Source: a virus
Reading direction: 5' to 3' (one strand)
IMG/VR virus record: IMGVR_UViG_3300010885_023843
Span: 1 to 21,683 of that record
DNA: 21,683 bases
Below are positions 1,190-21,418 of the stretch, piece after piece. Numbering within the stretch: the stretch's first letter is position 1; each line of letters opens with the position of its first letter. Both the position numbers and the translations under genes were made by a program. A model generated the notes under the pieces. It was not told the DNA's origin. It did no database searches and was given only the letters and a program-made list of their open reading frames with translations.

Positions 1190-2560
1190 ATGAAACAACC
1201 AAATTTATCAAACTTAACACTAAAACAAGTTCCATCGGAAATGTTTTTAGTTCTTGGAGGAAATCGAACACCCATTGATTCGGGTTTTGATCGTAATGCT
1301 GATTCTGCATTTGCCAAAAGAATTCCAGAAAACAAAAGATGTTTAATAGGAGATAATAATATTTGGTCAGCGGGAAAAATATACGACACATATACACTAC
1401 AATCTGCAAATAATTATTATGTTTTTAATCCAAACAACAATGTTGTTTATTTGTGTTTGGGAAATAATGCAGACAATAGAATAGACGGAACAGTAATTAC
1501 TTCTTCCTTTATACCAAACCACACTACTCCAACAGTAGTACTTTATGATGATGGTTACAGCTGGATGCCAATATTTAAAGTAGATCCTACTCAATATGCT
1601 TTTGTTAATAACAAGGATCTTCCTTTATATGACATTTCTATAAATCAAGATTATAATAATTTTACACAAAAATACGAACCTCTTTGCGGTTCAGGAGTTA
1701 CTGCCTTTGGGTGTTGTTGTCTTTATTTTAAAGAAGCCAATACAGACGAATTAACAAACGAAGTATATGCTAAGGGTGACGTATCTAACGAAACTATATT
1801 TTCTGATTGTTATGAATGTCAAAAATTAGCTGATAAATTGGATCGCCAGCCTATATTTTTGAGTGGTTTAACGGCAGGTAGTATTGTTTCAAGTAATACA
1901 GGAGAAAATCCTTTATGTGCTGCTACAACCACAATAAACACCTTGTATGAAAAATTACAAGAAAGTAAATACACATTTACTTATGGCAGCAGTAATGAGT
2001 TTGCTGTAAACTTATTGTCAAATTTTTCTAGCACTAATGGTATTATGTCTGCTCGTATTGATTTGAGTAATTTAACAACAGCTCAACGAACAGTTTCTAC
2101 ACCAAATCCAGTTGTAACAGTAATAGATCCTATTGGTTCTGGTGCTAGTGTTCGATTAAAAACTAGTCAAATTGATGCGAATTCTTATGAAGTTTACGGA
2201 ATAGAAACTTTAGAATATGGTCAAGATTATGTGCTTCCAGATATTTTAATCTCAGGAACTACACAGACAAATCCACTAAATGATGCCATTACCCTATTTA
2301 CGTTTCCTGATAATATATTTGAAAGTACAGAAATTCTAGTTTCTGGTAAAAGATATAAAATTAATTTTAGTATTTTAAGTACTGATATTTCTAATGTTTC
2401 TGGAATAGATAATATAACAAAATATGGTGTTTTAATAAATCCTGGATTTACTTCAGGAAATGGATTAGCTCAATTTACAAAAAATAGTTCAACAATAACG
2501 ACTATGGAATATCGTGTATTCCTTGGTCTAGATTCAAGTTTTCCGCAGTGCGACGTTTAG
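1190..2560 (+). CDS. gp8: Baseplate wedge subunit, gp8-like, with an extra cysteine cluster
   Basis: A 456-residue protein. Residues 64-145 follow the gp8 pattern: a YDTY segment, a tyrosine-rich YYVFNPNNNVVYLCL strand, a threonine/proline stretch, then DGYSWMPIFK and a Phe-Val...Pro-Leu strand. In T4, gp8 is a 334-residue dimeric wedge component that joins gp7, gp10 and gp6. Here it is about 120 residues longer. An unusual region at 166-210 holds C166, three adjacent cysteines at 175-177 and a CYEC pair (C207, C210), suggesting metal binding or disulfides. The C-terminal half is beta-rich, with a VLPDILISG strand near 348-356. It is separated by 18 bases from the gene before; the ribosome site is weak. 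Identification rests on the motif pattern and gene order. Confidence 0.7.
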   Translation: MKQPNLSNLTLKQVPSEMFLVLGGNRTPIDSGFDRNADSAFAKRIPENKRCLIGDNNIWSAGKIYDTYTLQSANNYYVFNPNNNVVYLCLGNNADNRIDGTVITSSFIPNHTTPTVVLYDDGYSWMPIFKVDPTQYAFVNNKDLPLYDISINQDYNNFTQKYEPLCGSGVTAFGCCCLYFKEANTDELTNEVYAKGDVSNETIFSDCYECQKLADKLDRQPIFLSGLTAGSIVSSNTGENPLCAATTTINTLYEKLQESKYTFTYGSSNEFAVNLLSNFSSTNGIMSARIDLSNLTTAQRTVSTPNPVVTVIDPIGSGASVRLKTSQIDANSYEVYGIETLEYGQDYVLPDILISGTTQTNPLNDAITLFTFPDNIFESTEILVSGKRYKINFSILSTDISNVSGIDNITKYGVLINPGFTSGNGLAQFTKNSSTITTMEYRVFLGLDSSFPQCDV

Positions 2561-6152: not shown

Positions 6153-7286
6153 ATGTCTAATTCTTCCAGTTCACAAAATAGTAGAGTCTTTTCGCCATAT
6201 ATTGTCTTGGCACAAGATACCTCACGCCTTTTTATTACTATAAAGACAGGAGAAGGTTATAGCATTGCTGCTGGTATTACTGGTGGAGATGTTGTTCGAT
6301 TTGATCCTGAATATACTGGAGGAGGTTTGACTGGGCAATACGTTAAATCGCAAGCTGATACTGATGAACATGCTGAAGTTGTTGGTATTGTCGAAACTAA
6401 ATCAAATAATACTTATACTGTTGTTACACATGGTTCTATTTTATATCCCCCTAGTCGTTTAACTGGAATTTGTGGAGCTGGTGGTGGTCTTGATGTTTTA
6501 TTTTTAGATTATAATATTGCTGGTGGATTGACTGGAACTATAGATGTTGATGATACTAGTTCAAAAATTATTAAACCTGTATTTCAGATTGCACCACATA
6601 GTACTTATAATGGTATTGTAGTAAATTATATTGGTTATAAAGCAGGAAATGCTGCTGTAGTAGAATCCGTTCCTTTTGGTGCAGGGGATGTTAGGTTTCT
6701 TACATCATCTGCTACTCCTAGTAATAATTGGCTGAATGTTAGTACAGATCAGAGTTTATTAAAAGAATCATATTCAGATTTATACGCAATTTATGGAAAT
6801 AGTGGCGGACCTTTTGTTGAACGCATTACCGTTACATCTACACCTTCTGCTACATTAATAGGAAAAATAGCATACCAATTAAGTGGAGGTAGTCAAATAA
6901 ACACAGGCACAGTTATTAGTGTTGATGCTGCTCAAAAATATATTCACGTACAAAAAGTTGCTAATAAATCATTAATGTCTGTTTCTAAAACAATCTATAT
7001 TTCTACTAGTGGTTCAGGACAATCATTTTCAGCAACATCAACACAGGTTTATCAATTTACTGTTCCTGCAATTGTCACAAATAACGCATCGACTCAAGGA
7101 GGAAATAATCTAATTCCGTATATAGAAACAACTAATAACACTTATATAAGCGTTCCAGATTCGTTAAATATCAATTCTATGAATATATCTGGAATTTTAA
7201 CTTTAGGAAATATAACAGATATGGAAACTCGTATTAATTATATGCAATCACAAATTGATTCTATAAATACTAGGCTAAATCTGTAA
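6153..7286 (+). CDS. Tail fibre/collar-type protein with interrupted collar-like domain
   Basis: A 377-residue protein. Residues 38-165 repeat the beta domain of the preceding fibre gene (both have a 'GD/N-V-V' strand, a 'V-V-G-I/V-V' strand, a T-V strand, and an 'A-G-G-I/L-T' turn). Residues 176-215 resemble a phage tail-collar microdomain: FGAGDVRFL, a WL, then SYSDLYAIYG. The usual closing strand appears only at 299-325 (VYQFTVPAIV, then GNNLIPYIET), so about 80 residues are inserted. The C-terminus (352-377) is a short predicted coiled coil (METRINYMQSQIDSINTRL) suited to trimerisation. The stop overlaps the next start by one base. The collar call is moderate. It may be analogous to the T4 gp12 short tail fibre, but no direct gp12 similarity is seen. 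Confidence 0.65.
   Translation: MSNSSSSQNSRVFSPYIVLAQDTSRLFITIKTGEGYSIAAGITGGDVVRFDPEYTGGGLTGQYVKSQADTDEHAEVVGIVETKSNNTYTVVTHGSILYPPSRLTGICGAGGGLDVLFLDYNIAGGLTGTIDVDDTSSKIIKPVFQIAPHSTYNGIVVNYIGYKAGNAAVVESVPFGAGDVRFLTSSATPSNNWLNVSTDQSLLKESYSDLYAIYGNSGGPFVERITVTSTPSATLIGKIAYQLSGGSQINTGTVISVDAAQKYIHVQKVANKSLMSVSKTIYISTSGSGQSFSATSTQVYQFTVPAIVTNNASTQGGNNLIPYIETTNNTYISVPDSLNINSMNISGILTLGNITDMETRINYMQSQIDSINTRLNL
7262..7269 (+). promoter_or_regulatory. T4-type late promoter box
   Basis: Exact TATAAATA within the last codons of the collar-like gene, 16 bases before the ATG at 7286. The spacing is nearly the same as for the box before gp13. It would give the collagen-stalk adhesin genes their own late transcript with a very short leader. 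Confidence 0.65.
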
Positions 7287-8653
7287 TGATTATTGTTGGT
7301 TCTAGTGTATTTACTTCGTCTTCTCATTCCTCTGTTACGGGACCAACAGGTTCAACAGGTTCAACAGGACCCGCAGGATTAGGATTAACTGGTTCTACTG
7401 GTTCTAGTATTACAGGAATCACTTTAGTTGATCGTTATTTGATAACTACATTTTCTGATGGTTCTACATACTCTACTTCTACACAAATATATGGTGCAAC
7501 TGGAAATGCATCTTATTTGTTGAGTTTTTCTAATATAGGAACTGGTGTTAGTTTAGGTTATGGTACTACTGGGTCTAATTTGCAATTAAGACCTATACGA
7601 TTTGTTAATACTACTAATGCAGTATTTATTATAACAGATGGACCTAATGTAGATGAGGTTATATTTTCAATTAATAGTCCTGGAGTAACATTAGTAAATT
7701 CTGTATCAACAGAAAGAAATTTAATAAAATTTAATTCATCTGGTAAACTAGAAAGAGTTTCTAATACTTTTGGCATAACACTACCATCAGATCTAACTGA
7801 TACTAATCCTGGTGTAGAATCTGTTGGTTTTGTCAATGCAAATATTTTTGAGATTGTTCGTGGTGGTGGGTGGACAGGTTCCACAGGAGGTGGTTCTACA
7901 GGAGCAATTGGTTGTACTGCCACAGTTGTAGGAATTACTTGTACCATAGACCCTACTTTTAGAGAATTTGATGGTCAGATGTATGGTTCTAGTTCTCGTG
8001 TGTTTGTTACAGATTTTCGTGGAAGCACTGGAACAATTATTATTAATAATCCACCAAACGATAATAAAGTTTATGGGTTTGATTTGCTTCTTTCTGGAGC
8101 ATTAAATCCTCAATTAATTTCTAACAGATTTAGTTCTAATATCAAATGGTCTTTAAATAGACCACCATGTTTTAGTTTTGACGGAATTACGTGTGATATG
8201 AAAATATCATTTTTTGGTTTAGGGGGAACTACATCTTGGTATGCTTCAGCAATTTCAACGTCATCTCGATGTACTGATAATCAAATATTTGATTCTAATT
8301 GTATTTCTCCTAGTGAATTTACCTCTGGAAGTTCTACATTTAAAGAATTAGGGTATGTTGGAGCTTGTTGTAAGGCTGATGGAACTTGCCAAGAAACCTA
8401 TGCAGAAAATTGTGTAGGATTCTTTCATGGTATCGGAACTACTTGTGGAGCAACATACGATTCTATTTGTGATAAAGTAGGGGCGTGTTGTGTCTTTGAT
8501 ACAGCATATAGGTGTTATGATTATTTGAGTTGTACTGATTGTTTGGCTTTAGGAGTATCTGGTTCAGTAACAACACAGTTTGCAGGAAAATATACAACGT
8601 GTTTTGATATAGATTGTAATATTCTTCGAAATAATTATTATATATTTTTATAA
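7286..8653 (+). CDS. Collagen-stalk, Cys-module adhesin 1
   Basis: A 455-residue protein. Residues 19-40 are a collagen-like tract (GPTGSTGSTGPAG then LTGSTGS). Next comes a short strand pair ending in a DG turn (about 45-60), a beta-rich middle (80-190) and a second Gly-rich linker (193-208, GGGWTGSTGGGSTG). A further beta module (229-330) follows. The C-terminus has two Cys modules, 359-395 (GACCKADGTC...) and 399-444 (GACCVFDTAYRC...). It is paralogous to the next two genes. Collagen-like phage tracts form trimeric triple helices in fibres, so this is probably a trimeric host-binding spike. The Cys pairs could bind metal or form disulfides after lysis. The function of the head domains is unknown. 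Confidence 0.7.
   Translation: MIIVGSSVFTSSSHSSVTGPTGSTGSTGPAGLGLTGSTGSSITGITLVDRYLITTFSDGSTYSTSTQIYGATGNASYLLSFSNIGTGVSLGYGTTGSNLQLRPIRFVNTTNAVFIITDGPNVDEVIFSINSPGVTLVNSVSTERNLIKFNSSGKLERVSNTFGITLPSDLTDTNPGVESVGFVNANIFEIVRGGGWTGSTGGGSTGAIGCTATVVGITCTIDPTFREFDGQMYGSSSRVFVTDFRGSTGTIIINNPPNDNKVYGFDLLLSGALNPQLISNRFSSNIKWSLNRPPCFSFDGITCDMKISFFGLGGTTSWYASAISTSSRCTDNQIFDSNCISPSEFTSGSSTFKELGYVGACCKADGTCQETYAENCVGFFHGIGTTCGATYDSICDKVGACCVFDTAYRCYDYLSCTDCLALGVSGSVTTQFAGKYTTCFDIDCNILRNNYYIFL
7340..7405 (+). repeat. Collagen-like Gly-X-Y coding tract
   Basis: Encodes residues 19-40 of the adhesin beginning at 7286, with Gly at almost every third position and mostly Thr, Ser, Pro or Ala at the others. 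The register slips once at GLGLTG. Confidence 0.75.
8360..8617 (+). repeat. Two G-x-C-C cysteine modules
   Basis: Copies at 8360-8470 and 8480-8617 encode GACC followed by Cys at varied spacings and ending in C-x(3-6)-C. They are the first two of nine related copies across four genes. Confidence 0.7.
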
Positions 8654-8666
8654 GTAATATAGAACC

Positions 8667-9776
8667 ATGAACATTAGAGCATCTAGTTTAATTTATATAC
8701 AAAGCCAATCAGGGCCTGTTGGTCCTACTGGTGCTACTGGTGCTACTGGTTCTACTGGTCCTACTGGAGGAACAGGAAATACAGGAAATTCGGGTAATAG
8801 TATAGATTACATAAGAAAAATAAATTCTGATGGTATTACTGTTTATTTAGTGGATGGCACTGCAATAAGTATTACTGGTTTATCTGGTAACAGTGCTGGA
8901 TCTGCTGATTTTTCATTAAATCCTTATGGTATTCTGGGATCTACTGGAACTACACCTTTATCGTTTAATATTGTTAGTGGGGTATCTGGTTTAACTGCAT
9001 CATTTAAATCTATAAAAGGATTCTATGGTATTAGTTTAGGCTATCAAGGAATGGATTTGATGTTTCGGGGTTTATCTACTACATCTGGTTTTGGTATAAC
9101 AAATGCAATTTTATATTCTGCAGGAAATACTGCTTTTGTTTTGATGGATGCAAATGGAGTAAATAGTATATTCCGTTATGAAACTCACACTTCTGGTTCT
9201 ACAACACAACACGTTGCTGTGGCAACAATATCTAAGTTTTTACAAGGTAAAAATTCTACAGGTATAACTAATATAAATTTAATCAATATTAATGGTATTA
9301 CTGCATATATTAAAAATTTTGCAGACACTTCAGTTAATTCTTTATATAGTAGTGGAGGAATATGGTATAATAAACAATGGTATAATAGTTCTTATAAGGA
9401 TGTTAAAGCAGTTTTAACACCACTTAATGCTGTGCAAAATAGCGGAATAACTTTTAATACGAATATTGTTTTTAGATCTCAAAACACGACTCCACTTAAT
9501 TTTCAAGAATATGGTTCTTGTTGTTTTTGTGATACTAATAGACAATGCTTAGATTATGTTACTAGATCCTATTGTTCTAGTATTACAAATTCGGTATTTT
9601 CTGCAAGTACAACTTGTGAGACTAGAGAGCGTAATCTCGAAACTAACTGTTATATGGTTGCTGGTGCCTGTTGTATTAATGGTGCTTGTAGACAAATATC
9701 ACAGACACTATGCGAATTGTATGGGGGTAATTTTAGAGGAGATATTGCTTGTGCTAGTGCGGGAGCATGTTCGTAG
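8667..9776 (+). CDS. Collagen-stalk, Cys-module adhesin 2
   Basis: A 369-residue protein with the same plan as its neighbours. A short N-terminal strand (residues 1-15, RASSLIYIQSQS) leads into a collagen-like stalk at 16-45. Then come a strand pair with VDGTAISITG (62-71), a beta-rich domain with SLGYQGMDLMFRG (123-135) and ITNAILYSAGNTAFVLMD (144-161), a second beta module at about 200-275, and two Cys modules at 283-328 and 333-368. It follows adhesin 1 by 13 bases with a weak ribosome site, so it is probably on the same transcript. A trimeric spike is inferred from the collagen stalk. No enzyme motif is visible. The second Cys module has the fullest form, with C-x(3)-GG-x-F between cysteines. 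Confidence 0.7.
   Translation: MNIRASSLIYIQSQSGPVGPTGATGATGSTGPTGGTGNTGNSGNSIDYIRKINSDGITVYLVDGTAISITGLSGNSAGSADFSLNPYGILGSTGTTPLSFNIVSGVSGLTASFKSIKGFYGISLGYQGMDLMFRGLSTTSGFGITNAILYSAGNTAFVLMDANGVNSIFRYETHTSGSTTQHVAVATISKFLQGKNSTGITNINLININGITAYIKNFADTSVNSLYSSGGIWYNKQWYNSSYKDVKAVLTPLNAVQNSGITFNTNIVFRSQNTTPLNFQEYGSCCFCDTNRQCLDYVTRSYCSSITNSVFSASTTCETRERNLETNCYMVAGACCINGACRQISQTLCELYGGNFRGDIACASAGACS
8721..8765 (+). repeat. Five tandem 9-base units coding G-x-T
   Basis: Five consecutive units of the form GGTNCTACT (N is C, G, G, T, C) run without interruption in the stalk of adhesin 2, followed by more degenerate GGA-starting units to about 8800. Low unit divergence suggests recent slippage or unequal exchange. 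Confidence 0.85.
9513..9770 (+). repeat. Two G-x-C-C cysteine modules
   Basis: Copies at 9513-9650 (GSCCFCDTNRQC...) and 9663-9770 (GACCINGACRQ...) at the C-terminus of adhesin 2. The second ends one residue before the stop. Confidence 0.7.
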
Positions 9777-9818
9777 GATTATGTTGATTTAAAGTTTACT
9801 AAATATAATAGAAATCAT

Positions 9819-12800
9819 ATGCCAACAATTATAGGAAATAGCACTATACACGATCAAAGTGGGAATACTGGACCTACTGGTAATGTTGGTCCTATTGGTC
9901 CTACTGGTAGTATTAGTTCTGTTGCTGGTCCCACTGGAACTACTGGAACTTATATTAGTATTATTAATACAGATTCTACTAGAAATACATTAACTTTTGT
10001 TGGATCTAATGGTAGTAATATTTCTATTTTACAAGGATTTACTGGACCTACTGGATATTACTCTGATTCTAGAGGAATATCTGCTGCCATATTATCTGGT
10101 TATTTTTCTGGCTTATCTGGTGTTATTAGCGGAAATACTTTTCAATTTTTAGGAATTTGTGGATCTGGATTATTAACATCGTCTTTATCTGCAGATAAAA
10201 CAGAAATTTTAATAACACCAAACGTTTTAGCTAGTTCTGCTTCCTATGGTTCTACTTTACCTAATAGTATTGTTTATACTGATTCTAATTATTCGGCAAC
10301 TACAACAAAAATTAGTATTACTGGATCAAATTCTATACTATCATTTGGTTTAACTGCTCATGGTGGTGCTACTGGCAGTTCTGTAAAGGTATTTACCGAT
10401 TTCAATGAAATTTATTTTAATATAACTGGAGGAATTACTCTAGGATTTACTGGAGGAATTACTCTAGATTCTGTGGTAACTGGTTACGATTCTGGTGGTT
10501 TAGTTATGGATCTAACTAAGTATACCACATATAAAATTAATTCTCCTATTGGTATTACTGCATTTACTTCTAACACAGACACAAAAGCACTACAGTCATA
10601 TACTTTGTTTATTGATGGTGCTGAAGTTTGGAATTTTCCAAAAAATGTATATTTTGAAAATACTAATTTAGGTGTTAGTGGATATGGATTTTTGAATGGA
10701 ATGAATATCGTTCATTTATGGAGTGATAATGCGGGTATCACATTTAACGCTGCGTTTGTTGCCAGGGGTCTTGGTGAAGAGAATGATATTGTTTATTCTT
10801 CTCTGTTTGGTTCCTGTTGTTATATCCCACCAATTATAGATGTAGGGGATCCTAATCCTTGTAAAGATTATATAACTCTAAGAGAGTGTGATATTCTTGG
10901 TGGAAATTTTTATCCATTAAAACCGTGCTCAGAAACTTGCAACATAATAGGTTCTTGTTGCAGCGAACATATTTGTTATGCAGGTGTAAAATTACGTGAT
11001 TGTGACGCAATTGGGGGAGTGTTTAGCGAATACAATTGCCTTGATATTGATTGTGAACCAATAGTAGTTTACACTTATGATATGATAATTAGTGAAAATC
11101 CAGATATTTTAGTACTGCCAAATTCTTCTAAATTATTTACTATTACAATTGAAACTACAGATATAAATCCTGTTTATGTAGATTTTCCTCGACAAATTTC
11201 TTCAACGCCTCCTGGAACTTTTTTTAAATTTACTGCAAAATTACCAGACGGAACTGCAATTAATTCTCAAGTTGAAGGTGATCCACTCACAGAACTATTA
11301 CCTGGTACCACTCTTGGTTTCTATTTTGATAATACTACCCTACCAAGTGCTGACGGTTCATCAGGAACACTTCCAATACAATTAAAAGATTCAACGGGAT
11401 CTATTAAAGACCAAATTAATATGCCTGTTGTACACTACAAAGATGGTCAGCTTCCAGGTTGTAGTGGTTGCGCTAATGCAACCAGAGTAGGTGGTGAATT
11501 TGAATTAATGTTAATGTGTGACGACTGTTATTCAAGTGTGGAAGATGGTCGCGAACATAATAAGTTGTTAGCGGTACAGTACGGATATATTAATTTTTGT
11601 GTTGGAGGAGCTGATAGTGGTTGTGGTTTTACATATGCTGCTAGTTGTATTCGTTCTGGCAACGTAATAGACTCTACTGGCGGCGGCGGCAGATTTCATT
11701 ATAATTTCTCTGACTGTAAAATTACAGATGCTAATACAGGTTCAGATCTTTGTGCTCACAGGCTTTATGGGGCTTTTTCAGATGTGGGTCCAACTGTTTG
11801 TGTTGATGCCTGTACAACAGCAGCCAAAGGAAATTTGGTGACAACAGGTTCCCATTGTAAAGGAGCAAATCGTGATGATGGAACTTCTAGTTATAGCACA
11901 ATGCTGCAGCTTCAGCCAGATATAACTTACAAATTACTAACTATGGGAATTCGTGTTGGATTTAATCCTATGTACCAAGCGATTGCAAGAGGTATAGAAA
12001 ATGATGTGGCTGGAGCACAAGTAAACGGTGAGCCACTATTTTTTAATAAAAATAATCAAGGTTCTGGAATAACCTTTAAGTCCGACAGTACTGTGTGCTG
12101 TTCTCCGAGAAGTGGTGATACAGGCACTCCAGCATTAGATTTTAGCAATCCTGACAGAAAATATTTTGTTTATTTGTTCTACATAAACGATTTTAAAGCT
12201 TACACGGGAAAAACTACTGTAATAAACCCTGGCGGACTTGGTACGGCTAATCATCCTTGTTATGATGAAAGTAACGAGATGACTGTTTATACAGTAATTG
12301 TTTCTGCAGAGCTAAATCCTGATGGTAGTATGAAGGCTGGGACTTATTGTGCAATTACTCTAAGAAGTGCTTGGTGTCAGCTTGGATTTCTGCTAAACCG
12401 CTGTAATCCTGAGTTTATTGAAAAACAAAAATATACTTATGGGTACAAATACATAGGAGAAATAAAAGAAAGTGATACAGCCTATCAAGGAGGTAATATA
12501 TGGTTTGTGAAATATAATACAAACAGATACAATCCTCTTGGCGATAGTTGTGGGTTGCAAGACACGCCAGATGCAGCAACTCGTTTTCAAGATATTACTA
12601 CTTGTCCATTCATAGTAAATCCTGCTGCTGGTCTCACTAATAAAGGTTTAAGAGAAGCAGAATTTTTTAGATATTTTTGGCAACCTACACTATGTGACAG
12701 AGATCCAAGTAGAGATAGTAATGATGGTTTTGGTCCATTAAGTTGTGCTGCTAGTAGTACTAATCAATGTTCTATACGCTTTGAAAGAGAACCATGGCAA

Positions 12801-13760
12801 GGTGGGGGAGACATGGGAGGACTAGAAGACATAGATATAAACACAGTCTGTGCATACGTAAATCCTACTAAAGTTTTGAATATAAATAAAACTCTTAATG
12901 AGAATAATCGTATTATAAGTGTTACTCCTACCGTATATAATGTAAGTACTAATGGTGATCTTACTGCTGATTACGGTGCACGTATATTTGTTTCTGCATT
13001 CCAAGACACCTACCCATGGACAGTGGGCTCTGAGGCTGGTAACAACATGAATTCTGTTGGTTCAGGAATGGAAGTCATGTCGTCTGGTGCAACAATTACA
13101 GTGGGAGAACCGTGTTGCCAAGCTGATTGGGAGTTTTATTTTATTTATACTGGTAGCACTAATATAACTCAAAGCCCTCCAGTCATAGCTAGCCAAAAAA
13201 TACGCATACCATTTATTTCCAGTCCAGAGAATCCCAAAGTAGAATTTTATGAGCCAAGTTTATTTATTCGCACAACATCATCATTGCAAACTGACGCCTT
13301 AGGCAGTCCAACTGGTAATATTGAATTCGTAGTACGTCCAAGCGAAAATTTAGGAGATTATATTGGAAAGGAAGATACTGATCAATTTTTAGTATGGACA
13401 GAAAAAGCCTCAGGAGGATATAACTACGATTTCTGGACTAACGGTACTGATGTGAATCCACATACTTTTATTATCCCTAACGCAGCGTCAACTTTAAAAC
13501 TGTACACAGACACAGCAGCAAGACGATACGTTAAAGTACACGCATTAGTAACTAGAACATACATTTCCACTTTAGGAAGTGGCGAACTTCTAGCAAGGCA
13601 CTCTGATTCTGTATCAAAAGTTTATATAGATCCACCACCAGCAGGATTATTAGAATTTTTTACGCCAATAAATACACAAACTAAAAAAATAAATAATCAA
13701 TGTGTTAGTATAGATTGCGTTGGTATTGAATCTTATTGCGCTGATTTAGAGGATTGTTAA
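9819..13760 (+). CDS. Giant collagen-stalk, Cys-module adhesin 3 with long C-terminal extension
   Basis: A 1313-residue protein. Residues 15-44 are a collagen-like stalk; a beta-rich region follows to about 325, and Cys modules lie at 331-374 and 378-412, as in the two preceding paralogues. Unlike them it continues for 900 residues. A beta-sandwich-like segment (about 420-545) leads to a Cys-rich region starting at CSGCA (about 548) and CDDCYSS (about 566), with a Gly run GGGG near 624. Several more Cys-bearing beta domains follow, and the protein ends VGIESYCADLEDC. No catalytic motif is recognised. Hand-counted GC over 11641-11940 is about 41%, against 28% over 9181-9480, which suggests the extension has a different origin. 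It is probably the largest host-recognition spike of the virion. The start has only a weak ribosome site. Confidence 0.7.
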   Translation: MPTIIGNSTIHDQSGNTGPTGNVGPIGPTGSISSVAGPTGTTGTYISIINTDSTRNTLTFVGSNGSNISILQGFTGPTGYYSDSRGISAAILSGYFSGLSGVISGNTFQFLGICGSGLLTSSLSADKTEILITPNVLASSASYGSTLPNSIVYTDSNYSATTTKISITGSNSILSFGLTAHGGATGSSVKVFTDFNEIYFNITGGITLGFTGGITLDSVVTGYDSGGLVMDLTKYTTYKINSPIGITAFTSNTDTKALQSYTLFIDGAEVWNFPKNVYFENTNLGVSGYGFLNGMNIVHLWSDNAGITFNAAFVARGLGEENDIVYSSLFGSCCYIPPIIDVGDPNPCKDYITLRECDILGGNFYPLKPCSETCNIIGSCCSEHICYAGVKLRDCDAIGGVFSEYNCLDIDCEPIVVYTYDMIISENPDILVLPNSSKLFTITIETTDINPVYVDFPRQISSTPPGTFFKFTAKLPDGTAINSQVEGDPLTELLPGTTLGFYFDNTTLPSADGSSGTLPIQLKDSTGSIKDQINMPVVHYKDGQLPGCSGCANATRVGGEFELMLMCDDCYSSVEDGREHNKLLAVQYGYINFCVGGADSGCGFTYAASCIRSGNVIDSTGGGGRFHYNFSDCKITDANTGSDLCAHRLYGAFSDVGPTVCVDACTTAAKGNLVTTGSHCKGANRDDGTSSYSTMLQLQPDITYKLLTMGIRVGFNPMYQAIARGIENDVAGAQVNGEPLFFNKNNQGSGITFKSDSTVCCSPRSGDTGTPALDFSNPDRKYFVYLFYINDFKAYTGKTTVINPGGLGTANHPCYDESNEMTVYTVIVSAELNPDGSMKAGTYCAITLRSAWCQLGFLLNRCNPEFIEKQKYTYGYKYIGEIKESDTAYQGGNIWFVKYNTNRYNPLGDSCGLQDTPDAATRFQDITTCPFIVNPAAGLTNKGLREAEFFRYFWQPTLCDRDPSRDSNDGFGPLSCAASSTNQCSIRFEREPWQGGGDMGGLEDIDINTVCAYVNPTKVLNINKTLNENNRIISVTPTVYNVSTNGDLTADYGARIFVSAFQDTYPWTVGSEAGNNMNSVGSGMEVMSSGATITVGEPCCQADWEFYFIYTGSTNITQSPPVIASQKIRIPFISSPENPKVEFYEPSLFIRTTSSLQTDALGSPTGNIEFVVRPSENLGDYIGKEDTDQFLVWTEKASGGYNYDFWTNGTDVNPHTFIIPNAASTLKLYTDTAARRYVKVHALVTRTYISTLGSGELLARHSDSVSKVYIDPPPAGLLEFFTPINTQTKKINNQCVSIDCVGIESYCADLEDC
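9861..9950 (+). repeat. Collagen-like Gly-X-Y coding tract
   Basis: Encodes residues 15-44 of adhesin 3 (GNTGPTGNVGPIGPTG, a short break, then GPTGTTG). Confidence 0.7.
10809..11054 (+). repeat. Two G-x-C-C cysteine modules
   Basis: Copies at 10809-10940 (GSCCYIPP... with C-x(3)-GG-x-F) and 10950-11054 (GSCCSEHIC... ending CLDIDC) within adhesin 3. The CxDIDC ending matches the end of the second module of adhesin 1, CFDIDC. Confidence 0.7.
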
Positions 13761-13761
13761 A

Positions 13762-14985
13762 ATGAGTATTCAATTTAGAGCAAGAACTATAACTCCTACT
13801 ATACAAGCATATCCTCCATCTATTTCTGGTGATTCTAGTGTTGGCTGGTGTTGTGGAAGTCTAGACAGAATATCTTCTAAAGTCGAGTGTGATGTTGCTC
13901 GTGGTTATTTTTTACCAGGACATACTGCTAGAACTGCGTGTCCTTCTTGTCCTGCAGCCTTTACTTCAAACACTGGGTCGTTAGGAGCATGTCATTATTA
14001 TAACAAGCAAAATGGATTTTATAATATTATGTGTAGTGATGTATACACTAATTTTGAATGTAATGATTTACACCAAGGAGCGGAAGAAGGATTACAATAC
14101 ACATTTAATCCGAATACTACTTGTGAATATTCTAATCACACAGAAAATACAAATAATATATTAGGAAATTGTTGCACACAAGGATTAACAGGAATAATTT
14201 CTTGTTCAATTGCATCCCAGACACAATGTTCTGGATTTTGGTCTTATCCAACAAATGGTATTATTTCTTGCAATGATTCTGTTCCGTGTTCTGGTGTTTA
14301 TTTTACAGGAGTTGATGAAATTTCTCCAAGAGCATCTTTAAATACACTTCAAACTTCAACAAATTATATTGAAACTTTACCAACAAATCCACAAATTTAT
14401 CAAGGTGGTTTGTATGTTGGAATATTTAAACCAGGATCTCCTATTAATACTAAAGGCGTAACTTTGTATGGTAGTCCCTTTACAGGAAACGCAAATCAAT
14501 ACATTTCAAGAGGAAATGGAGCAGGAACTTCTGAAAAAAGTTGGATATTAATTGCTGCTACTGATGATTTTTTCCGTATTCCTATGAATTCTGATATTTT
14601 ACCAGCAAGTAATATGACTACATCTATTTATGATGGTCTTTATAATAAACAAAATAATGAAGCTAATAAAGCTAGTGTATATTCGTTCATAGATAATTAC
14701 ACTTTAAATGGATTTAATGATTGGTATATTCCCAGCCAAGAAGAATTGGCATTTTATTTTCAGAATATAGAATATGGGTTTAAACTAAATGATCAATATG
14801 TTAAATTATCAGAAAGTTCATATATGAGTTCTACTATTTATGATAATGGAATTCAGAATTTTAACAATAAATATTTCCTGTATTCTCAGAACGCATCACG
14901 ATTCAACTACGGAAATGTTAATATTAGTCCAAGAAATATTTCACTAAATATTCGTTTATTTAGAAGAATTTATTTGAATTCGTGA
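13762..14985 (+). CDS. Cys-module adhesin with C-type-lectin-like (DUF1566/Lcl-like) C-terminus
   Basis: A 407-residue protein starting one base after the stop of adhesin 3. Residues 28-63, 75-121 and 135-176 are three more Cys modules (GWCC, GACH, GNCC). There is no collagen tract. Residues about 205-407 resemble the DUF1566/Lcl C-terminal family, which has a C-type-lectin-type fold: GGLYVGIF (215-222), SWILIA (260-265), NGFNDWYIPSQEELAFYF (316-333), YMSSTIYD (354-361) and a final IRLFRRI (397-403). In other phages and in diversity-generating-retroelement targets, this fold presents a variable ligand surface. A receptor-binding tip is therefore likely, though the exact family should be confirmed by profile search. 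No reverse transcriptase gene is present in the window. Confidence 0.7.
   Translation: MSIQFRARTITPTIQAYPPSISGDSSVGWCCGSLDRISSKVECDVARGYFLPGHTARTACPSCPAAFTSNTGSLGACHYYNKQNGFYNIMCSDVYTNFECNDLHQGAEEGLQYTFNPNTTCEYSNHTENTNNILGNCCTQGLTGIISCSIASQTQCSGFWSYPTNGIISCNDSVPCSGVYFTGVDEISPRASLNTLQTSTNYIETLPTNPQIYQGGLYVGIFKPGSPINTKGVTLYGSPFTGNANQYISRGNGAGTSEKSWILIAATDDFFRIPMNSDILPASNMTTSIYDGLYNKQNNEANKASVYSFIDNYTLNGFNDWYIPSQEELAFYFQNIEYGFKLNDQYVKLSESSYMSSTIYDNGIQNFNNKYFLYSQNASRFNYGNVNISPRNISLNIRLFRRIYLNS
13843..14289 (+). repeat. Three cysteine modules
   Basis: Copies at 13843-13950, 13984-14124 and 14164-14289. The middle one has a single Cys (GACH) where the others have CC. The last ends CNDSVPC. Confidence 0.65.
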
Positions 14986-15019: not shown

Positions 15020-15586
15020 ATGGGATGTGGATGTAATAAAAATAAAGAAAATCAACAACCTTCTTCCGAAGGACAAACACCAGTTTCTACAAACGTAGAA
15101 TTTAGGAAAGAATCTAACCCTCAGGATATTAAGGGGTTTCTTTCTCGTAAAATAGGAATGGTCCAGAGCTTTGCTTCAGCTTTAGTAAGTCGTGGTTTAA
15201 GTGATCAGAAAATTAATAAATCTGCAAAACAACTTAGAGCAATTAGTTGTTTTGGTAATACTAATCTTGGAGGACAACTTCCTCCTTGTGAATATCTGAA
15301 AGATAGCGAAACACCAGGAAAACATTTTTGTGGTGGTTGTGGGTGTGGCGATAAACCACACACATGGCTTACTATTGAAGGCGAAGAGTATAGTAAGTTA
15401 GATTATCCTAAGCTTAGTTGTCCTCTTCATATGCCTGGATTTAGTAATTATGAACCAAGTAAACCAGACGAATCAGTTTCTCCTATCACTCGACGTTATT
15501 ATATTGAGCATATTGATTTTGGTGAAGTATTAAAATTGAATGTCACTTTACCAGAAAAACCTCAAGATCCACCAAAACCAGAATAA
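15020..15586 (+). CDS. Small Cys-rich putative metal-binding protein
   Basis: A 188-residue protein with an AGGAG ribosome site 8 bases before the ATG. It begins MGCGCNK. Residues 34-75 look helical (GFLSRKIGMVQSFASAL...). Cysteines at 77, 90, 104, 107, 109 and 134 form C-x12-C, then FCGGCGCG (103-110), then LSCPLHMPGFSNY (132-144), with His at 102, 114 and 137. This resembles a zinc-ribbon or iron-sulfur knuckle in spacing, but I cannot assign a named family. The tail is Pro-rich. It sits between the adhesins and gp13, where T4 has wac (fibritin), and shows no coiled coil. It may be a virion component or a maturation factor for the Cys-rich adhesins; this is inference from location and composition. 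Confidence 0.65.
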   Translation: MGCGCNKNKENQQPSSEGQTPVSTNVEFRKESNPQDIKGFLSRKIGMVQSFASALVSRGLSDQKINKSAKQLRAISCFGNTNLGGQLPPCEYLKDSETPGKHFCGGCGCGDKPHTWLTIEGEEYSKLDYPKLSCPLHMPGFSNYEPSKPDESVSPITRRYYIEHIDFGEVLKLNVTLPEKPQDPPKPE

Positions 15587-15625: not shown

Positions 15626-16426
15626 ATGGCAAAACCTACTTCAAGAGAAACATTAATTCAGTATAGTCTTAGACAATTGGGTGCTCCAGTTGTAGAGATC
15701 AATGTAGATTGGGAACAGTGCGAAGATCGTCTAGATGATGCTCTTCAATACTTCACAGAGCGTCATTTCGATGGTGTTCAAAAAGTGTTCTTTAAATATC
15801 AATTAACGGCTACAGATATAGTCAATAGGTATATTCCTACCGAAAATATTATATCCCCAAACGAAGTAGATGGTCCTACAGGTAAACAAATTGTTTCTAT
15901 TGTTAAAGTTATGCAGTTTGGAATGTTTGCAAATATTAATATGTTTGATGTTCGCTATCAACTAGCCTTATCAGATTATTTTGGTATGAATCGAAATCTT
16001 GGTGGAAATGCGTCTATGGGATTAGCTGCATACGACAGCACCAAAAGATATATTAAATTGATTGAAGATTTGTTTCAACCAGAAAAGGCTATTGAATTTA
16101 GTAAAGTTACTAATAGATTATATTTAGATATGCAGTGGAGTACTGAAGTTGTGGCTGGAGATTTTTTGGTAATTCAGGCTTATGCAGCACTAGATCCAAA
16201 TAAATATACAGAAATTTTTGATGATCGTTATCTCAAGCGATACGTTACTGCATTGATCAAACGCCAATGGGGAGCTAATATGGCAAAGTTTGATGGTGTA
16301 GCCCTTCCTGGTGGTGTTGTGATGCGAGGTGGACAAATTCAAAACGAAGCTGCTGGTGAAATTGAACGAATCGAAGAAGAAATTAAACGTGAATATGAAC
16401 TTCCTGTTGATTTCATGACAGGATAA
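15626..16426 (+). CDS. gp13: Neck protein gp13
   Basis: A 266-residue protein; T4 gp13 is 309. The N-terminus (SRETLIQYSLRQLGAPVVEI, followed by VDWEQCEDRLDDALQYFTE) is the characteristic gp13 start. YFGMN near residue 112 and MQWSTEV near 169 also fit the family, and a helical C-terminus with many Glu/Lys/Arg ends the protein. With gp14, gp13 forms the neck that seals the filled head and receives the tail. An AAGGGATC ribosome site precedes the ATG. It is followed one base later by gp14. Assignment is supported by sequence and by the 13-14-15-16-17-18-19 order. Confidence 0.9.
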   Translation: MAKPTSRETLIQYSLRQLGAPVVEINVDWEQCEDRLDDALQYFTERHFDGVQKVFFKYQLTATDIVNRYIPTENIISPNEVDGPTGKQIVSIVKVMQFGMFANINMFDVRYQLALSDYFGMNRNLGGNASMGLAAYDSTKRYIKLIEDLFQPEKAIEFSKVTNRLYLDMQWSTEVVAGDFLVIQAYAALDPNKYTEIFDDRYLKRYVTALIKRQWGANMAKFDGVALPGGVVMRGGQIQNEAAGEIERIEEEIKREYELPVDFMTG

Positions 16427-18049: not shown

Positions 18050-18486
18050 GCGATAATGATATTATTTCTAAATCTCTAGACTTGGCATTTTCTGGTATAA
18101 CTGCTGAAGCTATTATTCCTCCAAAAACAACAAACATTGATGGTGATTTTGATTATGCTCGTGAAAATATTAAACAATTGATTGCTAATGGTTCTGATGC
18201 TATTGATGAGATTATTAAAATTGCCAAAGCAGGAGATAATCCACGAGCATTTGAAGTAGTAAGTTTGCTGTTAAAGACTGTGGCAGACATGAATAAAGAT
18301 CTGATTGATTTATATCAGAAGACTAAAGTTGTAAAAAAAGAAGAAACTACAATCAACAACACAACAAATCAATCTATATTTGTTGGATCTACTAGTCAAC
18401 TTCAAGATCTTATCAACAAAGATCGTAGTCGTATTAAATCTATTAAAAGTCAAAAATTTTTAGAAAATGAAGAAAATGGGATCTAA
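18046..18486 (+). CDS. gp16: Terminase small subunit gp16
   Basis: A 146-residue, mostly helical protein; T4 gp16 is 164. Residues 37-105 form the helical core (FDYARENIKQLIANGSDAID, then AFEVVSLLLKTVADMNKDLIDLYQ), followed by a Lys/Glu linker and NQSIFVGSTSQLQDLI, a segment typical of T4-like small terminases. It forms a ring that regulates the gp17 motor and recognises DNA for packaging. It starts in the ATGA overlap with gp15 and overlaps gp17 by 20 bases. Confidence 0.88.
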   Translation: MSDNDIISKSLDLAFSGITAEAIIPPKTTNIDGDFDYARENIKQLIANGSDAIDEIIKIAKAGDNPRAFEVVSLLLKTVADMNKDLIDLYQKTKVVKKEETTINNTTNQSIFVGSTSQLQDLINKDRSRIKSIKSQKFLENEENGI

Positions 18487-20161
18487 GAAAAAGTATGGGT
18501 ATTTGGGTAATCCAAATCTCAAACAAATTAGCACTGATGTAGAGTTCACAAAAGAACAAGTCGCTGAGTATATGAAGTGTGCTAGCGACCCTGTTTATTT
18601 TATTAAAAAATATATTAAAATTGTTACTCTAGATAAAGGTCTTGAGCCTTTTGAGTTGTATGATTATCAAGAAAAAATGGTGGAAACTATTCAGGATAAT
18701 CGTTATATTATTGCAAAACTACCACGACAGTGTGGTAAAACTACAACCGTTGTTGCTTGGTGTGTTCATTACATTCTTTTCAATCAAAGCGTAAACGTAG
18801 CTATTTTGGCTAATAAACTGAAGACTGCCATGGAAATTATGAAGCGTGTAAAAGAAGCATACGAGTATCTTCCGAAATGGCTACAACAAGGCGTAGTGGA
18901 ATGGAATAAAACTTCTATTCAGATTGAAAACGGATCTCGTGTTTTGGCTTCTGCCACATCTGCCAGTGCTGTGCGTGGTGGTTCCTACAATGTTCTAGTG
19001 CTCGATGAGTTTGCCCACGTTCCTTCTAATATTGCAGATGAATTCTTTAGTTCAGTATATCCGACTATTACCTCTGGTCAAACAACTAAAGTTATTATTG
19101 TGTCTACACCAAACGGAATGAATATGTTTTATAATTTGTGGCAGGGAGCTACACGGAAAGAAGAAGAAGAAGGTAAGAGTGAATACGTTCCTATTGAAGT
19201 TCATTGGAGCCAAGTACCCCTATATTCTGGTGGTCCATTACGTGACGAAAAATGGAAAGATAGAACTATAAAGCAATTAGGTGGTGGAGCTGGCGGAGAG
19301 CAACGTTTCGACAGCGAGTACAATTGTGATTTCATTGGCTCTTCTAATACTCTAATTTCTACTGCCAAACTTCATACACTAACACATAAAAAACCAAAAT
19401 CTAAATCTAAAGAAGGTCTTTGGGTGTACGAAGAACCTGTAGCAAACAAACCTTACATTATGACTGTGGACACATCCAGAGGACAAGGAAAAGACTATAG
19501 TGCAATATTAGTATTCGATGTGTCAGACACTCCATATAAGGTGGTTGCAAAATATAGAAATAATATTATTTCGCCAATGTTGTTTCCTACCATGATTGAT
19601 GCTCTTGGTAGAAAATATAATACAGCCTATGTTTTGGTAGAAGTGAATGACATTGGTAGTCAAGTAGCCGATATTCTTCATTATGATTTAGAATATGAAC
19701 ATGTTCTTATGAGTACTAATAAAGGCAGAAGTGGTCAGGTACTTAATGGTGGATTTGGTAAAGGGCAGACTCTTTTTGGTGTTCGAACCACCATGCCAGT
19801 CAAGAAATTGGGCTGTTCTATTCTTAAGAGTTTAATCGAACAAGATAAACTTCTGGTAGAAGACGAAGAAGTTATTTCTGAACTGTTGACTTTTATATCA
19901 AAACATAATAGTTACGCAGCAGATGATATGCATACAGACGACCTTGTGATGTGTATGGTGTTATTTGCTTGGTTAACCAAACAGCCTTATTTCAAAGAAT
20001 TAACCAATGTAGATATCAGAAAAGAGCTTTTTGAAGGGGAGATTAAAAAAATTGAGGAAGATGACTGGTTTAGCTTTGGGTTTATATCTAATGTAGACGA
20101 GGAAGAACCTCCACAATCACAACCAGATTCAGAAGAACGTGATTTTTGGTCTAAAGTGTAA
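18467..20161 (+). CDS. gp17: Terminase large subunit gp17 (packaging ATPase and nuclease)
   Basis: A 564-residue protein; T4 gp17 is 610. The ATPase domain shows a Walker A (KLPRQCGKTT, residues 84-93), a Walker B (VLVLDE, 176-181, with D180 and E181) and a coupling motif VSTPNG (212-217). The RNase H-like nuclease domain has D335 in TVDTSRGQGKDYSA, E392 in LVEVNDIG and D491/D492 in HTDDLVM, corresponding to the T4 catalytic triad. It pumps DNA into the prohead and cuts the concatemer. Two starts are possible, at 18467 or the Met three codons on (18476); both overlap gp16. The protein ends FWSKV, and no insertion or break is seen. Confidence 0.97.
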   Translation: MKKMGSKKKYGYLGNPNLKQISTDVEFTKEQVAEYMKCASDPVYFIKKYIKIVTLDKGLEPFELYDYQEKMVETIQDNRYIIAKLPRQCGKTTTVVAWCVHYILFNQSVNVAILANKLKTAMEIMKRVKEAYEYLPKWLQQGVVEWNKTSIQIENGSRVLASATSASAVRGGSYNVLVLDEFAHVPSNIADEFFSSVYPTITSGQTTKVIIVSTPNGMNMFYNLWQGATRKEEEEGKSEYVPIEVHWSQVPLYSGGPLRDEKWKDRTIKQLGGGAGGEQRFDSEYNCDFIGSSNTLISTAKLHTLTHKKPKSKSKEGLWVYEEPVANKPYIMTVDTSRGQGKDYSAILVFDVSDTPYKVVAKYRNNIISPMLFPTMIDALGRKYNTAYVLVEVNDIGSQVADILHYDLEYEHVLMSTNKGRSGQVLNGGFGKGQTLFGVRTTMPVKKLGCSILKSLIEQDKLLVEDEEVISELLTFISKHNSYAADDMHTDDLVMCMVLFAWLTKQPYFKELTNVDIRKELFEGEIKKIEEDDWFSFGFISNVDEEEPPQSQPDSEERDFWSKV

Positions 20162-20254: not shown

Positions 20255-21418
20255 ATGGCAGTCATCGAACCCGATTCTCCTCTTATTGCTGGTGTAGTAT
20301 CTTTTAATGGATTAATCCCTATATTTGGGTATACTGGTGCTAATGGAACTACAGCCGAAACTAGTATTGGTATAATGACAGTTCCTTCATACAATGATTG
20401 GGTTTCTCGTTTAAATTCTAGTCCATATCAAACTACAGGTCCTACAGGTGCTTGGGTTAATGAGTGGTGGGCTGTATACAATTATCTACAATATGGTGGA
20501 ATGTGTTTGGTTGGTGGAACAGGATCTACAGGAGATTATTATAGTGCCAGTGGTGTACTAACTGCTTCTAACACCCCATTACACAACAAGAGCATAAGTA
20601 CTTTTGACGTAGTATTCGATGCAGGAAATACGTATTCTGCTCAAGCAGCATATAGTATTGCTACCACGAGGCGAGATTGTGTTGCACTTATTGGAAATTA
20701 TCAAAATATTAGTGGTCTTCCTTTGGGTACAACTTATTCAGGTCAAACTGCAGATTTTGGTGTAACTCAAGGTACAACTGGTACTGAGTATGTGGCTTTT
20801 GTTGCTGGTAGAAAGAGATTTTTAAGTGATGTTGGTCAGTCTAATGGCGTAATATTTACTGCAAATTTAAGCCCAGATACTGCTGGTTGTATTGCTCGTA
20901 CTGCAGCATCTGTTTCACGATGGGTTCCGCCTGCAGGAAAAACTCGTGGTCGAATTCTTGGTGTAGTTAGTTTACAACAAAATTTTAGTGTAGCGGATTC
21001 TGATTATTTGTATGCTGGTGGTGTAAATCCAGTGAAAAATTTTCCAGGAGAAGGTACGTTTTTGATGGGTAATAAAACATCATATTCTGGTAGTGGTGTA
21101 TTAGGGTCTATAAATATAGCAGGAATGGTTGCTTATTTAAAGAAACAATTATTAATTATTGCTAATTCGCTTTTATTCGAAGCAAATACTCCGCAGTTAA
21201 GACAACAGTTTATTTCTCGTGCTACTCCATTATTAGAATCTATTAAATCTGGTAATGGCATTTCAGCATTTACAATTGTTTCGGATGCTAGCAACAACAC
21301 ACCAACAACAATAGCAGCAAATAAATTAATTGTTGATATTACTATAAAACCAAATTCGTCTGTTCAAACAATAAGTATCACTGTTATTAATAGCGATACA
21401 TCAGAAATCTTAATATAA
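20255..21418 (+). CDS. gp18: Tail sheath protein gp18 (compact)
   Basis: A 387-residue protein; T4 gp18 is 659. The N-terminus has SPLIAGVVSFNG and WWAVYNYLQYGG (70-82), the latter a typical sheath motif. The C-terminal half has the conserved sheath core: SPDTAGCIARTAASVSRW (206-223), PAGKTRGRILGVV (226-238) and GVNPVKNFPGEGTFLMGNKT (256-275). The end is a beta hairpin-like VDITIKPNSSVQTISITVI, the extended arm that links sheath subunits. The protein lacks the large inserted domains of T4 gp18 and seems to be close to a minimal sheath fold. It contracts around the tube to drive DNA delivery. AAAGGAAT precedes the ATG. It is followed closely by gp19. Confidence 0.92.
   Translation: MAVIEPDSPLIAGVVSFNGLIPIFGYTGANGTTAETSIGIMTVPSYNDWVSRLNSSPYQTTGPTGAWVNEWWAVYNYLQYGGMCLVGGTGSTGDYYSASGVLTASNTPLHNKSISTFDVVFDAGNTYSAQAAYSIATTRRDCVALIGNYQNISGLPLGTTYSGQTADFGVTQGTTGTEYVAFVAGRKRFLSDVGQSNGVIFTANLSPDTAGCIARTAASVSRWVPPAGKTRGRILGVVSLQQNFSVADSDYLYAGGVNPVKNFPGEGTFLMGNKTSYSGSGVLGSINIAGMVAYLKKQLLIIANSLLFEANTPQLRQQFISRATPLLESIKSGNGISAFTIVSDASNNTPTTIAANKLIVDITIKPNSSVQTISITVINSDTSEILI

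Follow-up and report, generated by a model that had tools for sequence, protein, structure and literature searches.

The window, by which we mean the whole stretch of 21,683 bases analysed here (an IMG/VR record), belongs to an aquatic T4-like myovirus, whose terminase is approximately 56% identical to its counterparts from Methylophilales and cyanobacterial myophages. Four consecutive fibre genes, called here A, B, C, and D, are flanked by baseplate and neck genes (Table 1). The Cys content of genes A-D was 3.3-4.2%, versus mostly 0-1.4% in the adjacent structural genes. The wedge-like baseplate protein carries, around residues 166-210, a Cys cluster of its own (GCCC...CYEC), which is distinct from the GACC module of the fibre genes and whose GxCC is present too in the related contigs L005, L006, and L007. 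Between gene D and the neck gene there is a protein without family match in which 8 Cys were also found in nearly all relatives.

Table 1. Coordinates of the genes, modules, and other Cys-rich features in the window.
Feature	Position	Strand	Description
Baseplate-like gene	start 71		
Baseplate-like (wedge-like) gene	1190-2560		weak similarity to Phage_80a_gp11
Gene A	7286-8653	+	collagen-like stalk (GxTGPTG), trunk (residues 1-358), two modules; stop 11 residues past A2
Module A1	8360-8470	+	GACCKADGTC...C, 6 Cys
Module A2	8480-8617	+	GACCVFDTAYRC...C, 6 core Cys and one extra; placed by alignment
Gene B	8667-9776	+	collagen-like stalk, trunk, two modules; stop 1 residue past B2
Module B1	9513-9650	+	GSCCFCDTNRQC...C, 6 core Cys and one extra
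Module B2	9663-9770	+	GACCINGACRQISQTLCELYGGNFRGDIACASAGAC, most canonical copy
Gene C	9819-13760	+	collagen-like stalk, trunk (residues 1-330), two modules, 901-residue variable tip
Module C1	10809-10940	+	GSCCYIPPIIDVGDPNPC...C
Module C2	10950-11054	+	GSCCSEHICYAGVKLRDCDAIGGVFSEYNCLDIDC
C-terminus of gene C	13710-13760		four-Cys tail, ...NQCVSIDCVGIESYCADLEDC
Gene D	13762-14985	+	three N-terminal modules, then lectin-like domain (weak Pfam Lcl_C match, phrog_4245)
Module D1	13843-13950	+	GWCC..., five Cys, without Cys 3
Module D2	13984-14124	+	GACH..., without Cys 2 and Cys 6
Module D3	14164-14289	+	GNCCTQGLTGIISC...C
Cys-rich protein	15020-15586		188 residues, 8 Cys (MGCGCNK..., GGCGCG)
Neck	15626-16426		
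Terminase	18467-20161		
Sheath	20255-21418		

The starts of the nine modules were correct in the original prediction, each being the G of a G-x-C in frame within genes A-D. The module follows the pattern G-x-C-C and then four Cys at spacings of about x5, x7, x13, and x4, with GG-x-[FYW]. The G-x-C-C form announced for all copies was found in eight of them and not at 13984, which reads GACH; similarly, six Cys are present in most copies, the exceptions being D1, with five, and D2, with two lost. In shuffled proteins the expected numbers were 0.34 for G-x-C-C (maximum 4 in 5,000) and 0.0026 for the full six-Cys pattern (maximum 1), against 8 and 7 found. That the nine modules are one family was borne out by these statistics, by their mutual alignment, and by the retention of Cys in the relatives: between the window and L003 all 53 of 53 module Cys are kept, versus 217 of 375 (58%) of the other module residues, and the L003 counterpart of D2 retains both Cys 2 and Cys 6. 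A mixed profile of 56 rows, mostly bacterial and other phage modules with B2 as the one window row, recognised B2 (itself a row), A1, and C2 with 30.4, 20.1, and 16.5 bits, respectively, and gave weak scores to B1 and C1 (5.1 and 7.6 bits). Since A2 and the gene D copies were below the 5-bit listing threshold, their membership rests on alignment, spacing, and relatives.

The module is shared with bacteria. DNA patterns were used for searching sequence collections, and the proposed kinship with GACC-type repeats in secreted proteins of environmental bacteria was upheld by the pattern scan, the mixed profile, and the counts of signal peptides. In bacteria the repeat has about 36 residues and is present in 1-19 copies per exported protein, separated by short linkers that are often Pro-rich, of the PQP type. 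Among the matches listed in the pattern scan of genome contigs, most were from Phycisphaerae and other Planctomycetota and few from other groups, in a scan which demanded GGC as the glycine codon and the GG at one set position and is therefore biased to GC-rich genomes. By a simple hydrophobicity rule, signal-peptide-like starts were found in 75 of the 98 bacterial module proteins with a start inside the locus (77%), compared with 160 of 796 other ORFs (20%), and in 0 of 33 phage module proteins, a count that concerns the whole protein and not the module. Within the sampled phyla the distribution of the module is patchy and not universal; with E ≤ 1e-8 the phylum of L089 had it in 3 of the 59 genomes sampled, seed genome included, and the phylum of L038 in none of 60. 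One planctomycete array (L066, 1861-4857) consists of a variant repeat in which Cys 6 is absent and Cys 4 is doubled (ACCLPDGSCIETDPDCC). The bacterial proteins resemble those of the window in having the same module in multiple copies with short, often Pro-rich linkers; unlike the phage proteins, they have signal peptides and sometimes dockerin-like domains, and no collagen stalk was seen in them. No model of Pfam or NCBIfam lies over the modules in the scanned phage and bacterial proteins, no PHROGs family lies over them in the window proteins, and a literature search found no description of the repeat. The domain family to which the GACC module belongs is unnamed and has its main use in the exported proteins of Planctomycetota.

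The losses of Cys give an indication of how the six are paired. Cys 6 is absent in 8 of the 11 modules without Cys 2 versus 27 of the 593 modules with it; five of these eight co-losses come from one protein (L023), and counted per contig the co-loss is 4/7 versus 17/144. Cys 1 and Cys 4 are lost together in L069, L118, and L124, which are one homologous set, so this second co-loss is weak. Taken together, they suggest the pairing C1-C4, C2-C6, and C3-C5 and favour disulfides over metal. The odd Cys numbers in D1 and certain other copies count against the disulfide reading.

Searches against all PDB chains were carried out with several profiles. The 56-module profile retrieved iRhom1 and iRhom2 alone (E 0.0024-0.02), and so did the bacterial-tandem (E 0.029-0.18) and mixed-tandem (E 0.11-0.99) profiles; with the 12-module profile, the iRhoms appeared at E 0.33 and complement C2 also, at E 2.8. 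Considering that several profiles were tried, the best E of 0.0024 has to be taken modestly. A derivation of the module from T4 gp10 had been suggested; in these searches, through which the comparison was made, no gp10 chain was among the matches and the iRhoms were returned instead, so this suggestion found no support. The matching structures (PDB 8SNL, 9Q7Y, 9XY4, and 9O58) are from human iRhom1 and iRhom2 and comprise the iRhom homology domain, where six Cys are found with the order, spacing, and flanking residues of the GACC module, including G-x-[FY] before Cys 5. It was also possible to see, in the mixed-tandem alignment, a second and degenerate module copy upstream within the same domain. 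The iRhom stretches scored 25.8 and 27.4 bits against the module profile, a score which was never reached by the controls, neither by the 200 profiles whose non-Cys columns had been permuted nor by the 3,000 Cys-fixed shuffles per sequence.

Template-free models were obtained for the window pair B1-B2 (pLDDT 87.5) and for a bacterial tandem (pLDDT 92.6), both built from overlapping bacterial sequences and thus incompletely independent. With both models the iRhom chains were the sole PDB matches found by Foldseek, but with E >1 and probabilities of 0.69 and 0.72; the best rmsd was 2.7 Å for B1-B2 and 1.8 Å for the bacterial tandem, over 33-35 columns, that is, one module, and the region compared with the module fold was residues 571-606 of iRhom2. 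These models suggest that the module and the iRhom homology domain module may share a fold. The fold search of a viral structure library gave no useful match. As Pfam scans found no rhomboid membrane core in the phage proteins, the relation with iRhom is at the module level only.

Unlike the phage proteins, iRhom1 and iRhom2 are membrane pseudoproteases that regulate ADAM17, and the domain is their luminal loop. It has been described as having 8 disulfides and an unprecedented fold without known relative (PMC11248996), with all of its 16 Cys paired (PMC10148629) and two structured regions (PMC8233286). We lean towards the view that the iRhom homology domain is related to the GACC module and perhaps derived from it. 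The domain would itself be formed by two modules, with a long insertion in the first; the same bead would then be common to the ADAM17 regulator, the phage fibres, and the exported proteins of Planctomycetota. Small disulfide-rich folds are prone to convergence, and this ease, together with the modest sequence E and a fold E above 1, makes it possible, although rather doubtful, that both reached a small CC-x-C-x-C-x-C-x-C knot from separate ancestries. Against convergence, the signal sits in the non-Cys positions, as the permuted and Cys-fixed controls never matched the score, the larger profiles retrieve the iRhoms exclusively (the 12-module profile adds one weak other match), and the degenerate second copy lies inside the same domain.

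Related phage contigs were found via searches with gene C, gene A, and the neck protein and with the DNA pattern; they are mostly fragments, the largest being G001, with 153,850 bases, where the modules are confined to the fibre genes. Modules are present in the corresponding genes of L003, L005, L007, L010-L013, L022, and the marine contigs L141-L155; the 50,697 phage records of INPHARED gave zero GACC module matches. The related contigs share the gene order A-B-C-D and the trunk sequences (homologues of the gene A trunk in L003, L005, L007, and L013), and the modules still come after the trunk in genes A-C and before the lectin-like domain in D, with the exception of gene C of L013, whose degenerate modules lack GxCC. 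Beyond the modules, tips are gained, lost, or replaced among relatives. In L003 and L013, as in the window, gene A ends 11 residues past its last module; in L005, L007, L145, and L155 it is extended by 409-450 residues. Gene B ends after 0-2 residues in the window, L005, and L007 and is extended by 224, 439, or 626 residues in L151, L013, and L003, the 439-residue tip being made of RCC1 repeats. In gene C the length past the last module goes from 4 to 1591 residues; the window protein and that of L003 have an identity of about 0.8 along the trunk and about 0.2 along the tip. Certain tips resemble RCC1 or Lcl_C domains in the Pfam scan, and the RCC1 repeats in the gene B orthologue of L013 (4324-6732) were matched with E 4e-16 to 7e-12.

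Other features were observed in these contigs. The four-Cys tail of gene C is retained in L003, L010, L013, and partly L005, despite the non-conserved tip that precedes it. The marine relatives of gene C in L150 (3-4340) and L145 (1-4074) have up to 13 GxCC sites per protein and about 9% Cys, and a 102-residue ORF of the related phage L018 (2259-2564) contains 13 Cys, with a single canonical module, GACCIGGVCSVTTEAACTSAGGTWQGLGTSC. The host recognition cluster of pelagimyophages and cyanomyophages, which are also T4-like aquatic phages, likewise has a hypervariable fibre region and collagen repeats; the paper contains no description of Cys modules (PMC7029224).

Taking into account the position of the modules, their tandem arrangement, the stapled fold, and the swapped tips, we consider it probable that the module is a disulfide bead with linker in the putative fibres, oxidised after release. 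Each copy would be a bead of about 36 residues, compact and stapled by three disulfides, with the order strand-strand-helix-strand, and one to several beads with their short linkers would make a stiff and protease-resistant connector. In genes A-C this connector would couple the collagen-like stalk and trunk with an optional, fast-changing receptor-binding tip, and in gene D it would lie ahead of the lectin-like domain. The Cys of the phage proteins would be synthesised in the cytoplasm and most likely oxidised after lysis, so that the fibre would be hardened outside the cell; we infer this timing from the absence of signal peptides and because 12 related contigs, some of them partial, yielded neither a thioredoxin nor a glutaredoxin gene. 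A search for Erv1 was uninformative, target and controls being equally silent.

It seems improbable that receptor binding falls to the beads themselves, with host glycans or proteins as their ligands. Where the protein ends right past the last module, that is, within 0-11 residues in the A and B proteins listed above, the modules would be the tip, but their non-Cys residues are under little shared constraint and other orthologues bear long extra domains after them.

The surprise at finding many Cys in a phage virion was justified, yet there is a precedent in the Agrobacterium phage Milano, whose virion contains disulfides that must be reduced for contraction (PMC10811340). Milano has a contractile tail and many structural Cys, as the window phage does, and the slender middle of its short tail fibre consists of two small bead domains, each with a beta-hairpin and a short helix per subunit. 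Its fibre bonds are listed between chains, unlike the pairing proposed for the module, and Foldseek of both module models against the PDB gave no match to the Milano short tail fibre bead. In a redox switch as proposed for Milano, subunits or fibres would be cross-linked by disulfides upon release, and the breaking of these bonds at the host surface would trigger a conformational change. Such a switch would agree with the reduction required in Milano and with the extra or odd Cys of A2, B1, and D1. We give it a similarly low probability, considering that the core has six paired Cys in a compact domain, for which intramolecular bonds are the simplest arrangement, and that the exported bacterial relatives carry the module without contraction machinery.

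Metals stiffen some T4 fibre tips. Of the two options first put forward, metal knuckles or disulfides, the second is favoured by the paired Cys loss and the exported relatives, and the disulfides may, as was also put forward, be switches that lock once particles reach oxidising water. The metal option, with Zn or Fe held by the Cys in the reducing cytoplasm and stiffening the fibre, is very unlikely: it would suit the strict Cys conservation and the synthesis in a reducing compartment without signal peptide, but conserved CxxC or His is absent in 56-77 aligned modules, Cys are lost pairwise where a four-ligand site would vanish as a set, the bacterial relatives are exported, and the iRhom relative is disulfide-bonded (PMC11248996).

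With the modules read as disulfide beads and linkers, the window phage and its relatives would be a second group of contractile-tailed phages with probably disulfide-dependent fibres, which raises the question of when and how phage proteins from a reducing cytoplasm get oxidised. The modules mark the site of fibre tip exchange. This unnamed family would connect the fibres of aquatic T4-like phages with exported proteins of Planctomycetota and a human signalling regulator, and it may offer relatives for the iRhom homology domain, which had none when it was solved.
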